This document shows, one piece after another, positions 32,449 through 36,767 of a DNA stretch of 64,000 bases. Within the stretch, counting starts at the first letter, position 1. Each line of letters begins with the position of its first letter. This stretch comes from Lachnospiraceae bacterium (GTDB taxonomy: Bacteria; Bacillota; Clostridia; Lachnospirales; Lachnospiraceae). The stretch spans positions 1 to 64,000 of the forward strand of contig JAFRSD010000019.1 in the NCBI GenBank assembly GCA_017427775.1. The letters run 5' to 3'. Position numbers and translations under genes: made by a program. The notes beneath the pieces are model-generated. The model did not search any database. It had not been told where the DNA came from and saw only the letters and a list, made by a program, of their open reading frames with translations.

Positions 32449-34137
32449 CTAATAGTAAGTGTATTCAAATTCCGTTATATCCTTCCTGTCCTCTCCCTCT
32501 TCATAATCCCGAAACTCTTCAATCCTGATAAGATTCCCGCGATTATCATACTGCCGGGTGCAAGATATTGTACCACTGTTCCTATAGAGGTAGCAGACAG
32601 TCTGTACTCTGTTTCCGAGGGAATCAAAACCGGATGTGATTTCCGAATCAAGTGCTCCGTCTCTCTCATCATATGTAGCACCTCGATATAGCTCCAGATG
32701 ACACTTGATCCCGTAATTCGCATAATCGAACTGAATACAACCATCGTCACTTGCGAATACGGAAGTGTACGGCTCCTCTTTTGAACATTGACATGAACTT
32801 ATACCTCTGAAACTTATACCGGTAAAAGGATCCGTAGGCAACTGCCTTATCCCCTCGCAATCCTCAGAAACCATGTACAAGACATCCTTTACTAACAAGT
32901 TTCCTCTGTATTCCGTTACACGGAGTGCTTTCTTTGATGGATTGCTCAGATCAAAGTAATTCCATTCATACAGAGTGATGCCTTCAAGCGTGGTAACGGA
33001 TGTTATCCGTCCCAATGAATCGTACTCGTAAAAATCTTTGGTTATTATTTCTCCGCCTTTATCATATCCTATGTGTTTTTTTATCTTTCCCTCGGAATCG
33101 TTCTCATATTCGTCTGTGAGGCGCAAGGAATCATCTTTATTCTTGGTATACCGCGAACCTTTACACGATTTATCAGTACTGTTGTAATATTGATAATCAT
33201 ACTCATGGTAGCCGCCACCATAAGAACCATCTACAGGCGAAATAGCCCATCTCACCATTTGAATCAGTCTTCCGGCCTCATCATAAGAATTCCATCCATA
33301 AAGCCTATCTTTATCTCCTTGATAGTAGATTGTCTTTCGCTCTGACGGAATGTATTCCGCGCAATCTAGTTTCTTTCCATCGACACCATACTCACGAAGA
33401 ATCAAATTCCCGAAAGCATCATATTCATATATATCATGTTTTGTTTCCTCACCGGACGCATCATAAGTTACGCTTCGGAGGAGTACTTCCTGATCGGTAT
33501 ACTCGCTTTTTTGTGTTTCCGTTACATTTCCTTCCTCATCAAAATCCACACCTTCCCTAAACACACATTTTCCCTGTGAATTGTATCTTTCTTCCTCTTT
33601 CGAAGAATAGTGTCCGTCTCTCGTTGAAATCGTCTTTTTTGTATATCCGTCCTCCGTATACGCATAGGAAACCTTTCTCTCCGAGCCTCCATCGATATTC
33701 CCTTCGCCCGAAATGTCATGCCTCCCTACATGATTAGTTTCCTTCCATTCCTCCGAAACGACCCGATCCAAATCGTCATAGAAATAAAAACCTTCCTCTT
33801 CGAAAGTTTTTACGAAAGGATCTCCTCGGTAGTATCTTATTTGCATCGTATAGACATGAACCTTCCGTCCTTTATCGTCATAATCGACATGCTCTATAGA
33901 TTCTAATTGTCGTTCACCGTTTTCACCCACGGTATACGCTTTGCAAATATAACTCTCCGGAATATCCCCTCGGAGATAACCGGCCAGGGAGCTTCCCTCC
34001 TGTTTCGACAAGGCCGGTTTCTTCTTCGTGAGCATCCGAACAACCAGTATCCCCTCAATCACCAGGGCAATGCTGCAGAGCGCAACAATCCCGATGATGA
34101 ACTGTTTCTTCGTCAGATGCCTTCTCTGATTAGCCAT
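32449..34137 (-). CDS. Membrane-anchored YD/RHS-repeat-like protein in the radical SAM locus
   Basis: This 562-aa protein has a basic cytosolic start, one membrane helix (about 12-33) and a long outside part made of Tyr/Asp-rich short repeats of the RHS/YD kind (for example YEYDAFGNLILREYGVDG, FYEYDSLGRITSV, YDNRGNLIRIEE). These repeats normally build beta-strand shells or bind carbohydrate. No toxin domain is seen at the C-terminus. The start is 1 base after the stop of the radical SAM gene and has a GGGAG site inside that gene, so the two are translationally coupled. Base composition is visibly more AT-rich than its neighbours, suggesting acquisition. Confidence 0.8.
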   Translation of the reverse strand: MANQRRHLTKKQFIIGIVALCSIALVIEGILVVRMLTKKKPALSKQEGSSLAGYLRGDIPESYICKAYTVGENGERQLESIEHVDYDDKGRKVHVYTMQIRYYRGDPFVKTFEEEGFYFYDDLDRVVSEEWKETNHVGRHDISGEGNIDGGSERKVSYAYTEDGYTKKTISTRDGHYSSKEEERYNSQGKCVFREGVDFDEEGNVTETQKSEYTDQEVLLRSVTYDASGEETKHDIYEYDAFGNLILREYGVDGKKLDCAEYIPSERKTIYYQGDKDRLYGWNSYDEAGRLIQMVRWAISPVDGSYGGGYHEYDYQYYNSTDKSCKGSRYTKNKDDSLRLTDEYENDSEGKIKKHIGYDKGGEIITKDFYEYDSLGRITSVTTLEGITLYEWNYFDLSNPSKKALRVTEYRGNLLVKDVLYMVSEDCEGIRQLPTDPFTGISFRGISSCQCSKEEPYTSVFASDDGCIQFDYANYGIKCHLELYRGATYDERDGALDSEITSGFDSLGNRVQTVCYLYRNSGTISCTRQYDNRGNLIRIEEFRDYEEGEDRKDITEFEYTYY

Positions 34138-34138
34138 C

Positions 34139-35161
34139 TCATTTCTCTCCCATTACTCTCGCACAACGCGGGGATTCGTATAATTTGCCGTGAACAAAAA
34201 AGTTATACGAACGGCAGCCGCCCGCACAGTAGCCCCCCATCTCACACGTTGCGCATGCGCCGGTCAGCATACTCTTATCAAACTTCCGGTTATAGGCAAA
34301 TGCGTTCTCGTCCTCCCAAATCTCCCGAAGGCTCCGCTCCCGCAGATTCCCTTCGTTGAAACGCTCGTCGTACATCGACTCGCAGCCCCGCACGTTACCA
34401 ACACTGTCGATGCCGATTGACGAAAGGCCCGCGCGGCAACCGGTATAGTAAGCGTGTCCGCTCAGATTGCCCCGAAGGCTTCCTTCCCCGGGCGTAAAGT
34501 AGCCGATATTGTCCGCGATGCCAAGGAGAAACGGTGCCGTCCGCATATGACTTTCGACAAATGCGATGACTTCTCTCGGGTCAAATGCGATATCGATCCC
34601 GCCATTGGCCGCATTGCCCATCGGCGAGCACGCCTGCAGCTGCCATGCGAAAATCCCGCTGTTCTTCAACGTTTCATACAGTTCGGGAAGATGCTTTGCA
34701 TTTTCCGCGTTCAAAGTACTGATGACCGATACCGGGATCTTGGCACAAAGGAGCGCCTTGATTGCTTTGATGGCACGGTCGTAACTGCCTTCCTGACGAT
34801 ACTTGTCATGGACCTCTTTCGGTCCGTCCAGAGAAACTGAAACAGACTCGATCCGAAGACTCTTCAATTCGGAAAGAAGGCTTCCCGTAAACAGAAAGCC
34901 GTTTGTGATGATATTGACAACGATTCCGTTTTCGATAAGCCTTCCGACTATTTCCTTCCAATCTTTGCGCATGAAAACTTCGCCGCCGATCATGGACACG
35001 CGGCGACAGCCAAGCTCCTTAAGCTGATCGGCAACCGAGAGGCATTCCTCCGTGCCGAGTTCGTTCTCACGGGCTTTTCCGCCCGCGGAACCGCAATATT
35101 TACAGGAGAAGCAGCATGCAAGCGTGATCTCCCAGACGCATTGTTTTAAGTGATATTTCAT
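34139..35161 (-). CDS. Radical SAM/SPASM maturase
   Basis: A 340-aa enzyme predicted to modify a peptide or protein by radical chemistry. The SAM-cleaving 4Fe-4S site is C16-x3-C20-x2-C23 (ACCFSCKYCGS). The C-terminal SPASM domain is complete: C...GNVRGC, then CATCEMGGYCAGGC (C-x2-C-x5-C-x3-C) and a final Cys in SPRCARVMG, ligands for two auxiliary clusters. SPASM enzymes typically act on ribosomally made peptides (AlbA, PqqE, MftC). There is no N-terminal PqqD-like recognition domain. The gene follows the YAGP-repeat protein by 22 bases with AAGGAG and is coupled to the YD-repeat gene. The likely substrate is the upstream protein (inference). Confidence 0.92.
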   Translation of the reverse strand: MKYHLKQCVWEITLACCFSCKYCGSAGGKARENELGTEECLSVADQLKELGCRRVSMIGGEVFMRKDWKEIVGRLIENGIVVNIITNGFLFTGSLLSELKSLRIESVSVSLDGPKEVHDKYRQEGSYDRAIKAIKALLCAKIPVSVISTLNAENAKHLPELYETLKNSGIFAWQLQACSPMGNAANGGIDIAFDPREVIAFVESHMRTAPFLLGIADNIGYFTPGEGSLRGNLSGHAYYTGCRAGLSSIGIDSVGNVRGCESMYDERFNEGNLRERSLREIWEDENAFAYNRKFDKSMLTGACATCEMGGYCAGGCRSYNFFVHGKLYESPRCARVMGEK

Positions 35162-35183
35162 GAGACTCCTTCTTCGGTCGATT

Positions 35184-35882
35184 CTAGCAGTTTTGAACCC
35201 CTCCGTCGTTCGGATACTGCACCATGTACCCGCATTCCGGGCAGAACTTGGCCCCGGGAATCAGTTTTGTTCCGCACATGGTACAGAACTTCGGGCCATT
35301 TGTCCGGTTCGGCTCATCCTTCGTAATACCGATTCTTCCCGGTTTCGGAAGCGGAGGCGCTGCGTAAACCAGCATCATCGTCGGCTTGGACGTCATGCTA
35401 TTCTTGAGTGCTTCCACCGCAGGGTCCGGGAAAGCCGGGCCTGCATATGCGGCCATCATGCGGGGATCATTATAAATTTCATAAGGATTGCGTTTCCCGT
35501 CGGAATTCTCCTTTCCCTCCACAGGTTCTTTCTTTTCGCAACCCTCTTCGCTTTGCTCACTGCTTTCGGACCCGTCAGCCGTTTCCTCCGCGGGTGTCTC
35601 TTCCTCGCAGGGTTCCTCGGAACCGAGTTCTCCCATCATACCGGGACCAGCGTAAACATCCTCCGTTACCGGCTTCCCGGCAGCCATCATCATGCCGTTC
35701 AGTCCCCCAAACGGATTATTATTCTGCGCGTTGAAATACCCCGGCCCTGCGTAAACCATCAGGAACTGACTCAGGTCAACCTCAGACTTTGGTTCCTCCT
35801 TTATAACCGGTTCCGCGATCTCTTCCTCATCGATAATGCTGTCGGGATACTTCTTATCCTTCAATTCGTCAAAATCTGCCAT
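35184..35882 (-). CDS. YAGP-repeat zinc-ribbon protein, candidate radical SAM substrate
   Basis: A 232-aa acidic protein without signal or membrane helix. Four short motifs recur in otherwise low-complexity, Glu/Ser/Pro-rich sequence: MVYAGPGYF (residues 42-50), DVYAGPGMM (75-83), AAYAGPAFP (144-152) and LVYAAPPLP (171-179). The C-terminus is a zinc ribbon (C200-x2-C203, C214-x2-C217) ending in Cys232. A repeated core motif beside a SPASM maturase is the pattern of multi-core RiPP precursors. The start is the ATG after AAAGGAG; a TTG two codons earlier is the alternative. It lies 18 bases after rsmA, so it should share that transcript. I know no described family with this layout. Confidence 0.8.
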   Translation of the reverse strand: MADFDELKDKKYPDSIIDEEEIAEPVIKEEPKSEVDLSQFLMVYAGPGYFNAQNNNPFGGLNGMMMAAGKPVTEDVYAGPGMMGELGSEEPCEEETPAEETADGSESSEQSEEGCEKKEPVEGKENSDGKRNPYEIYNDPRMMAAYAGPAFPDPAVEALKNSMTSKPTMMLVYAAPPLPKPGRIGITKDEPNRTNGPKFCTMCGTKLIPGAKFCPECGYMVQYPNDGGVQNC

Positions 35883-35900: not shown

Positions 35901-36767
35901 TCACTTTGCGGTTCCGAGTTCGTCTGCCAATGCGGCAAATTCCATAAGCGTTAATGCCTCTCCACGGATTGTTAAAGACATTCCGAGCCTTGTAAGTGCC
36001 TCCGCGACCTGTTCCTTCGTGCAGCCTGTTTCGGGCGCGTTCCCGATACCGTTCACCAGTGTCTTTCTGCGCTGGTTGAAGGACGCCCGGATCAGGGCAA
36101 ATAGAAATCTTTCATCTTTCACCACAACCGGCGGCTTTTCATGAAGCGTCAGCCGGATCACTGCCGATCCGACATTCGGGCGCGGCATAAAGCAGTTCGG
36201 CGGCACATTTGCCGCAATATAAGGCTCCGCGTAATAGCGGACCGCCAGAGACAACGCACCGTAGTCCTTCGGGCCGGGACCGGTTTCCATTCTTTCGGCC
36301 ACTTCCTTCTGCACCATAACGGTTATGCTTGCGACCGGAAGCCGCTCCTCGAGAAGTTTCATCAGAATCGGCGTCGTAATGTAGTACGGCAGGTTCGCAA
36401 CCACCTTAACGGGCCGTTCGCCGTACTCCGCTAGAAGCTCGCGGATATCGGTCTTCATGATGTCGGCATTAACGACCTTCAGATTCGTGTAATCCTTGCA
36501 CGTGTCGGCCGTTAAGATCGGAATCAGGTTCCGATCAATCTCAACCGCAACCACATTGCCGGCCTCTTCACAAAGACGCTGCGTCATCGTTCCGATTCCC
36601 GGACCAATCTCCAGAACCACATCGTCCTTTGTAATCTCCGCCGCGGCAATAATCTTGTCAACCACATGCCCGTCAATTAAAAAGTTCTGTCCGAATTTCT
36701 TCTGAAAATTGAAATGATACCGCTGCAAGACGGCAATCGTTTCTTTCGGATCACTCAGGTAAGCCAT
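35901..36767 (-). CDS. rsmA: 16S rRNA dimethyladenosine transferase
   Basis: RsmA (KsgA) dimethylates two adjacent adenines near the 3' end of 16S rRNA in late small-subunit assembly. The N-terminal KKFGQNFLID, the SAM loop VLEIGPGIGTMTQ and the catalytic NLPYYITTP are canonical at 288 aa. AGGAG precedes the ATG. A TATAAT-like box (36793-36798) lies upstream on the minus strand with no clear -35. The 3' neighbour 18 bases on is the YAGP-repeat protein, so the unusual locus appears to be read through from rsmA. Confidence 0.97.
   Translation of the reverse strand: MAYLSDPKETIAVLQRYHFNFQKKFGQNFLIDGHVVDKIIAAAEITKDDVVLEIGPGIGTMTQRLCEEAGNVVAVEIDRNLIPILTADTCKDYTNLKVVNADIMKTDIRELLAEYGERPVKVVANLPYYITTPILMKLLEERLPVASITVMVQKEVAERMETGPGPKDYGALSLAVRYYAEPYIAANVPPNCFMPRPNVGSAVIRLTLHEKPPVVVKDERFLFALIRASFNQRRKTLVNGIGNAPETGCTKEQVAEALTRLGMSLTIRGEALTLMEFAALADELGTAK

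Follow-up and report, generated by a model that had tools for sequence, protein, structure and literature searches.

The window analysed here, a stretch of 64,000 nucleotides from Lachnospiraceae bacterium (assembly GCA_017427775.1, contig JAFRSD010000019.1, positions 1 to 64,000), encodes a protein with repeated Y-A-(G/A)-P sites and a C-terminal zinc ribbon (the YAGP protein) and, directly downstream, a radical S-adenosylmethionine (SAM)/SPASM enzyme. YAGP protein and SPASM enzyme are a real, conserved two-gene unit, and comparison with relatives supports their assignment as a dedicated substrate-maturase pair with repeated target sites. On balance, we favour the interpretation that the pair is a splicease-like two-gene system in which tyramine would be excised from every V-Y-A site, so that alpha-keto-beta-amino acids would remain in a protein of full size. 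No literature joining YAGP with a radical SAM enzyme was found, and neither VYAGP nor YAGPE occurred as a motif among the literature matches listed; Scott et al. 2022 (Chem) may overlap in part.

Conservation of the enzyme-substrate pair

An enzyme-based scan of genome contigs gave 137 confirmed relatives. The best 80 (62-95% identity) were kept and make up, together with the window, 81 loci (numbered L). Substrates were counted with the site pattern Y[AGSNF][GASPC]P, one open reading frame (ORF) per locus. An ORF with YAxP sites was located directly upstream of the enzyme in 77 of the 80 loci, with at least two sites in 75 and a median gap of 9 bp; these 77 adjacent ORFs carry 312 sites in total (1-10 per protein). 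The other three loci were accounted for. L077 has two sites at the C-terminus of the second of two downstream kinase-like ORFs, and L039 and L085 have YAGP zinc-ribbon proteins with five and three sites, respectively, encoded elsewhere in their own genomes; the 3-kb stretches around these contain no radical SAM ORF. Among 964 control ORFs, YA[GA]P was present in five and at least twice in two, namely the YAGP ORF of the window, which had been left in, and the kinase tail of L077.

An enzyme profile run over 299 genomes of the family (numbered G) gave a clean split: 10 enzymes scored 562-639 bits, and the other 6 scored 289-325 bits. A site-bearing ORF adjoins all 10 high-scoring (YAGP-type) enzymes; G189 was counted via L021, to judge from length and position on the same contig, G105 has a convergent ORF of 134 residues with CIYAPPEIM that was spotted only on a second look, and in G017 the adjoining kinase-FHA protein carries VYAAP. 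Three further enzymes beyond that of the window (485-594 bits) were found in 291 genomes of the class, all three beside YAGP ORFs. The family and class draws overlap with the 80 relatives: 8 of 13 are the window (L107) or look-alikes (L109, L110, L111, L112, L113, L114 and L183 of L021, L061, L045, L079, L067, L073 and L075, respectively), as judged from the length and site number of the substrate or, for L109, from its contig and position, and five are new (L108, L115, L116, L184 and L185). The pairing of YAGP protein and SPASM maturase as substrate and maturase, proposed in the original prediction from the window, recurs in the relatives, and no YAGP-type enzyme in the data examined was consistently paired with another substrate.

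A DNA pattern for VYAGPE matched 143 of the 299 family genomes. The match was a single KL(H/F)VYAGPEH in an ORF of 142-171 residues in 28 of the 30 VYAGPE loci opened (L128-L157). This segment lies near the C-terminus of ribosomal protein L13 in many Lachnospiraceae (Pfam-checked in two) and has the same five residues as the site, probably by coincidence. The pattern is confounded as a test for substrate without enzyme because of these single-site L13 ORFs. Paired VYAGPE sites within 1 kb occurred, among the matches listed, only in G039, G075, G266 and G285, all with the enzyme. YAGP proteins common without a radical SAM neighbour, which the original prediction had named as evidence against itself, were therefore not seen among these matches. 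G270 has three VYAGPE sites, far apart, and no enzyme. A search with the whole YAGP protein matched 10 of the 299 genomes, largely through zinc-ribbon residues; it tests nothing, since the substrate was missed in 8 of 10 enzyme-bearing genomes. The VYA[GA]P pattern revealed no second multi-site protein in the genome of the window.

Most YAGP-pair loci are from herbivore guts: 30 of the 80 come from ruminant or horse samples, and 34 more are labelled RUG or RUI, which we take to denote rumen genome sets. The enzyme of L184 is flanked by two YAGP proteins, one with seven sites upstream and one of 101 residues with AYAGP and VYGGP downstream.

Target sites and substrate proteins

Within the 312 sites, position -1 is Val in 262, +1 is Ala in 285 (Gly in 11) and +2 is Gly in 258. 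Position +4 is most often Glu (109), -4 is Met, Ile or Phe in 234, and Met, Phe and Tyr are frequent at +5 and +6. Tyr with Ala or Gly at +1 and Pro at +3 makes up 298 of the 644 substrate Tyr residues, compared to 12.2 expected; the motif-based choice of ORFs accounts for at most 77 of these. The YAGP protein of the window, with its sites in the contexts MVYAGP (Y44), DVYAGP (Y77), AAYAGP (Y146) and LVYAAP (Y173), was shuffled 20,000 times. The shuffled sequences had a mean of 0.015 YA[GA]P, and two sites were reached in none.

Identity in 55 substrate pairs was 1058/1099 for site residues, 627/1065 for the zinc ribbons and 3529/7994 for the remainder, the first value being high partly by construction, as a site was a position where both proteins fit the pattern. 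Retention shows more strongly in pairs with the same number of sites: all or almost all of these sites align, with the remainder 32-84% identical. For L018, L019 and L020, with enzymes 92-94% identical, all four sites align, and the rest of the substrate minus the zinc ribbon is 41-67% identical. As judged from these alignments, the sites are retained while the spacers diverge.

Such retention, seen for all 80 loci either at the locus or elsewhere in the genome, argues against an unmodified YAGP protein whose sites are docking motifs for an enzyme acting on something else, as do the matching X-Tyr-Gly (XYG) cores in precursors of relatives (see below). We regard docking as very improbable, even though the YAGP protein is far above the usual size of a precursor of ribosomally synthesized and post-translationally modified peptides (RiPPs) and zinc ribbons together with a kinase-FHA fusion hint at signalling. 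Very likely, the enzyme acts on the Tyr residues of the sites.

The consensus of 78 substrates is M..YP..(VYAGP)n..CxxCG..FCxxCG. Zn_Ribbon_1 was matched by 43 of them; the zinc ribbon in the window corresponds to PF13240 (32.6 bits, cut-off 25). Outside the zinc ribbon the substrate is probably disordered. The 15 Pfam families matched by the 78 substrates include no Nif11, no DUF1843 and no peptidase-inhibitor domain. No precursor family was present among the 25 listed of the 31 NCBIfam families matched by the substrates; the matches are to a 4-Cys prefix domain and to enzymes fused to the sites. Most substrates have one copy of a second motif, YPx[N/R/S], and YP is present in 75 of 77 proteins. 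It is a lead at most, since 89 of 648 Tyr are followed by Pro and the proteins are Pro-rich. A short basic amphipathic stretch (FFKKLFGKK-like), N- or C-terminal and often close to the YP motif, was observed in e.g. L030, L033, L064 and L091 (34 of 77 substrates with a loose pattern, some false matches included). Contact with the membrane or the enzyme is possible for it.

Kinship of the enzyme

The window enzyme comprises a radical SAM domain (PF04055, 85.5 bits) and a SPASM domain (PF13186, 34.1 bits). The cluster residues C16, C20 and C23 and the SPASM residues C242, C260, C303, C306, C312, C316 and C333 are invariant in 53 aligned sequences (alignment A1: window enzyme plus 52 of the 80 kept relatives), in agreement with the complete enzyme described in the original prediction. 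A fold comparison did not rank the chemistry of the enzyme. The model aligned only from SuiB residue ~100 on; the RiPP recognition element (RRE) of SuiB presumably lies before this residue, and an N-terminal RRE is therefore absent from the window enzyme.

The best NCBIfam models were TIGR04103 ('nif11-class peptide radical SAM maturase 3'), with 240.5 bits over the whole enzyme, and the GDL-motif maturase TIGR03913, with 213 bits (cut-off 591.75). Scores were lower for MftC (134 bits), SkfB (86 bits) and PqqE (85 bits). A Nostoc enzyme scoring 853 bits is a true TIGR04103 member. A maximum-likelihood tree was calculated from 44 rows, i.e., the window enzyme, 23 of the 80 relatives and 20 others, after trimming of 15 and 28 N-terminal residues from L118 and L119. 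It holds one Nostoc TIGR04103 member, PlpX itself, AlbA, SkfB and PqqE being absent, and a warning of long branches applies. The 24 YAGP enzymes form one group (100/100). Together with the nif11_3, GDL, NHLP and KYGYP enzymes they make up one clade (100/99; 38 rows vs 6 outgroup rows), with MftC, TIGR04053, TIGR04347 and heme-type enzymes as outgroup; the inner join of YAGP enzymes and KYGYP group is weak (87/80). The signature G24, Q174, Q176 and G220 is present in 38/38 clade members and in 0/6 outgroups. These comparisons place the window enzyme, with strong support, in a common clade with the spliceases of PlpX type (TIGR04103) and the GDL/DUF1843 enzymes.

The original prediction had used relatives of AlbA, PqqE and MftC for comparison and had matched the system to no class it knew. 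Both statements have to be revised, as the nearest models by score are TIGR04103 and GDL, the enzyme groups with spliceases and GDL enzymes, and XYG or X-Tyr-Ala (XYA) sites lie beside these. MftC, PqqE and AlbA/SkfB share the radical SAM/SPASM fold. MftC as closest kin was rejected: the window enzyme reaches 134 bits against the TIGR03962 cut-off of 265, and MftC lies outside the 100/99 clade. In mycofactocin biosynthesis, the precursor MftA ends with VY and MftB serves as chaperone; the MftA of L123 ends with GMCGVY, whereas the YAGP sites are internal.

Sites beside related enzymes

Nineteen non-YAGP relatives were inspected, 14 in the tree and 5 from the class search, and a nearby ORF with X-Tyr-[Gly/Ala] was present in 16. 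The Nostoc TIGR04103 enzyme has a Nif11 precursor ending with IALYGLPPELF, followed by an ORF of 71 residues. Six of eight DUF1843 peptides carry XYA or XYG (LYAAG, MYAAS, PYGAG, LYGGA, PYGVA, PYGPA). Sites of NHLP relatives are AYGIA and AYGVP, and short peptides beside relatives contain LYGIEP. Proteins of 179-387 residues with four to ten KYGYP/KYGVP-type sites adjoin sister-clade radical SAM enzymes in L118, L120, L122 and L188; in the first three they lie upstream of the enzyme. Tyr-[Gly/Ala] has Pro at +3, as in YAGP, in 31 of 52 occurrences in seven multi-site relatives. The multi-site cases carry the weight, because a single XYG may turn up by chance.

According to PMC10533398, PlpXY excises tyramine at MYG and LYG and accepts GYG, and its tags include PIRPLYGLPI. 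Taken together with the XYG/XYA sites of the relatives, the YAGP site resembles a splice site in which Ala has taken the place of Gly. PlpX and PlpY resemble the YAGP system in several respects: a radical SAM/SPASM enzyme with CxxxCxxC and complete SPASM domain, from the same clade as a TIGR04103 member, and multi-site precursors with an X-Tyr-small core and the Y-x-x-P spacing of Nostoc LYGLP. The YAGP system differs in its XYA sites and its large zinc-ribbon substrates, in which no Nif11 or NHLP leader was found. The GDL maturase, the second-best model, likewise has XYA/XYG near the N-terminus of its DUF1843 peptides (example cores VLYAAG, PMYAAS, MLYGGA), but these are single-site peptides of 54-70 residues, and YAGP substrates are without DUF1843. 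Also close are the KYGYP/KYGVP systems of Lachnospiraceae and Clostridia, with multi-site proteins that have Tyr-x-x-Pro. They differ in having mostly Lys at -1 and Gly at +1, an N-terminal domain in place of the zinc ribbon, and an enzyme extended at its C-terminus by a part that looks TPR-like.

In the L188 protein (L188:359-1303), this N-terminal domain matches Inhibitor_I42 (chagasin family, E 5e-12). Those of L118, L120 and L122 matched nothing in Pfam and have S[ST]NYGWCL in common; L122 and the window come from the same genus. KYGYP/KYGVP proteins compared to PDB sequences gave matches only in repeats. Chain C of 6v9z (CtA, the PCAT1 substrate) has the repeats VKYGV, IKYGV and IKYG, like the XYG proteins, at an E-value of only 0.12; CtA may be a spliceotide-type precursor. 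On an Agathobacter rectalis plasmid (L102:3704-3910), an unannotated ORF of 68 residues with MYGTG near its C-terminus is located immediately upstream of genes for a splicease-clade radical SAM enzyme and an MFS transporter.

Proposed chemistry

By analogy with PlpX, tyramine excision is the likely chemistry. Having no RRE itself, the enzyme would bind the YAGP protein by other means, for which the YPxN motif, the zinc ribbon and the sites are candidates. Excision at each site would give several ketoamides per protein. As read here, the YAGP system works like a splicease but departs from several defining splicease features, namely XYG, RRE partner, leader and model cut-off.

Several points weigh against this interpretation. 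The chemistry is deduced from sequence, and only part of the splicease-type clade has proven activity. Sites have Ala rather than Gly at +1, and XYA sites do not appear in the splicease accounts consulted. According to PMC11002830, PlpX belongs to IPR026482 and works with the small RRE protein PlpY. A PlpY-like partner was not found: among the 45 largest clusters of neighbouring ORFs (at least 60 residues), non-substrate families within 600 bp occurred in at most 6 of 81 loci, a count that covers partners encoded nearby. The window enzyme scores far below the TIGR04103 cut-off of 725 bits, and an enzyme above this cut-off was found in none of 199 genomes of the phylum. IPR026482 is taken here to correspond to TIGR04103. 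The motifs of the relatives were sought after the fact, those of L102 and L119 are single sites, and L106, L189 and L190 (3 of 19) have no X-Tyr-[Gly/Ala] site beside the enzyme. Two of the eight DUF1843 peptides have MYM in place of XYA/XYG.

Another radical reaction at the YAxP sites, for example crosslinking through a C-C or C-O bond centred on Tyr (-2 Da), epimerisation or desaturation, would leave the pairing as it is. We rate it unlikely, though deserving some weight. Clade-mates by tree and signature are splicease and XYG enzymes, and the site lacks an invariant second residue that a crosslink could use, +4 to +6 being variable.

For the splicease-like system, the product would probably be a full-length intracellular protein with several ketoamides and not a released peptide. 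A classical multi-core RiPP, in which the YAGP precursor is cut into several small modified peptides for export, would also have repeated cores and variable spacers, and some sister systems lie by C39-type transporter genes (by eye) or have short Nif11-like precursors (L117, L189, L190). By eye, the surroundings of the YAGP pair show no recurring family of proteases or exporters, in line with the neighbour counts above. Zinc ribbons in the substrates, sites that form part of folded enzymes by fusion or insertion (L034, L051, L116) and a substrate encoded away from the enzyme in two genomes also speak against such a precursor, which we consider improbable.

As a guess, the ketoamides could trap proteases or other nucleophiles, and a Val-ketoamide-Ala-Gly-Pro site could trap a protease cutting after small aliphatic residues. 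Beta-residues from splicing give potent protease inhibition, according to a review (PMC10373908). The Inhibitor_I42 domain of the sister-clade KYGVP multi-site protein L188 is a hint in this direction; our estimate is unchanged by it, since YAGP substrates show no such domain. If the splicease-like reading is true, Clostridia of herbivore guts also use radical SAM backbone splicing to modify proteins of full size, and the compact system for it needs two genes, with no RRE or leader found. Reactive ketoamides could then be introduced into proteins with such a system, and the role of multi-ketoamide proteins in cells would become testable. The YAGP, KYGYP and KYGVP proteins, so far unnamed in Lachnospiraceae, would also be tied to one enzyme clade, and one of them to a peptidase-inhibitor domain.

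Sites fused to other proteins

The sites, with a zinc-ribbon-like end, run on in frame from RsmA in L034, from an NADPH-dependent FMN reductase in L051 and from cobyrinate diamide synthase in L072; in the last, the two parts may be translated separately, since an internal Met lies at the junction. L116 has VYAAP and the YP motif in the linker that joins its kinase-like and FHA domains. Each fusion needs checking, because the assemblies are draft or metagenome assemblies. Together, the four cases suggest a portable tail. It is quite possible, if short of probable, that YAGP segments are a portable tag, as tail or linker, on zinc ribbons and unrelated enzymes, rewritten by a dedicated RRE-free radical SAM enzyme at up to 10 V-Y-A sites, and that splicing is a protein modification with a cellular role and not a step towards a natural product. 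Carriers would be RsmA, the FMN reductase and the kinase-FHA protein, and perhaps cobyrinate diamide synthase.

Gene organization and the YD-repeat gene

All genes of the locus lie on the - strand, three of them downstream of rsmA (Table 1). The gaps are 18 bases from rsmA to the YAGP gene, 22 bases to the radical SAM gene and 1 base to the YD-repeat gene; the three packed genes, their 18-base and 1-base gaps, and the four sites and zinc ribbon of the first product, as given in the original prediction, were all found in place.

Table 1. Features of the YAGP locus in the window
Feature	Position	Strand	Remarks
YAGP protein (proposed substrate)	35184..35882	-	232 aa; ATG at 35882, stop ends at 35184; C-terminal zinc ribbon
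Radical SAM/SPASM enzyme	34139..35161	-	340 aa; splicease clade; without N-terminal RRE
YD-repeat protein	32449..34137	-	562 aa; N-terminal hydrophobic stretch; lineage-specific neighbour, not core
rsmA	35901..36767	-	upstream neighbour; in relative L034 fused in frame to YAGP tail
Site 1, VYAGP	35742..35756	-	residues 43-47; also DNA pattern match
Site 2, VYAGP	35643..35657	-	residues 76-80; also DNA pattern match
Site 3, AYAGP	35436..35450	-	residues 145-149
Site 4, VYAAP	35355..35369	-	residues 172-176; also DNA pattern match
YPDS, YPx[N/R/S] motif	35838..35849	-	second family motif, mostly single-copy; possible recognition element
Zinc ribbon CxxC...CxxC	35223..35288	-	residues 199-220; PF13240
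CxxxCxxC cluster motif	35093..35116	-	enzyme residues 16-23
SPASM region, seven invariant Cys	34163..34438	-	enzyme residues 242-333

The YD/RHS-repeat protein matches PF05593 (32.4 bits, cut-off 22); its hydrophobic stretch was judged by eye. A three-gene system, in which this protein anchors or presents the modified protein, would fit the 1-base gap in the window and the presence in L017, after 6 bp, of a related downstream protein. It is nevertheless hardly credible: in 54 of 81 loci the next kept ORF lies on the opposite strand or at a distance above 150 bp, and 3 loci end there. The YD-repeat protein as a core part was rejected, as homologues occur in 3 of 81 loci only. The single system of three genes in the original prediction, for which a check of co-occurrence had been suggested, therefore stands for its first two members, which recur together in 77 of 80 loci, and not for the YD partner. 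The YD-repeat gene is a local neighbour: its homologues (7 ORFs, 5 of them in L017) are confined to the window, L016 and L017, the latter two holding the closest relatives of the window enzyme.

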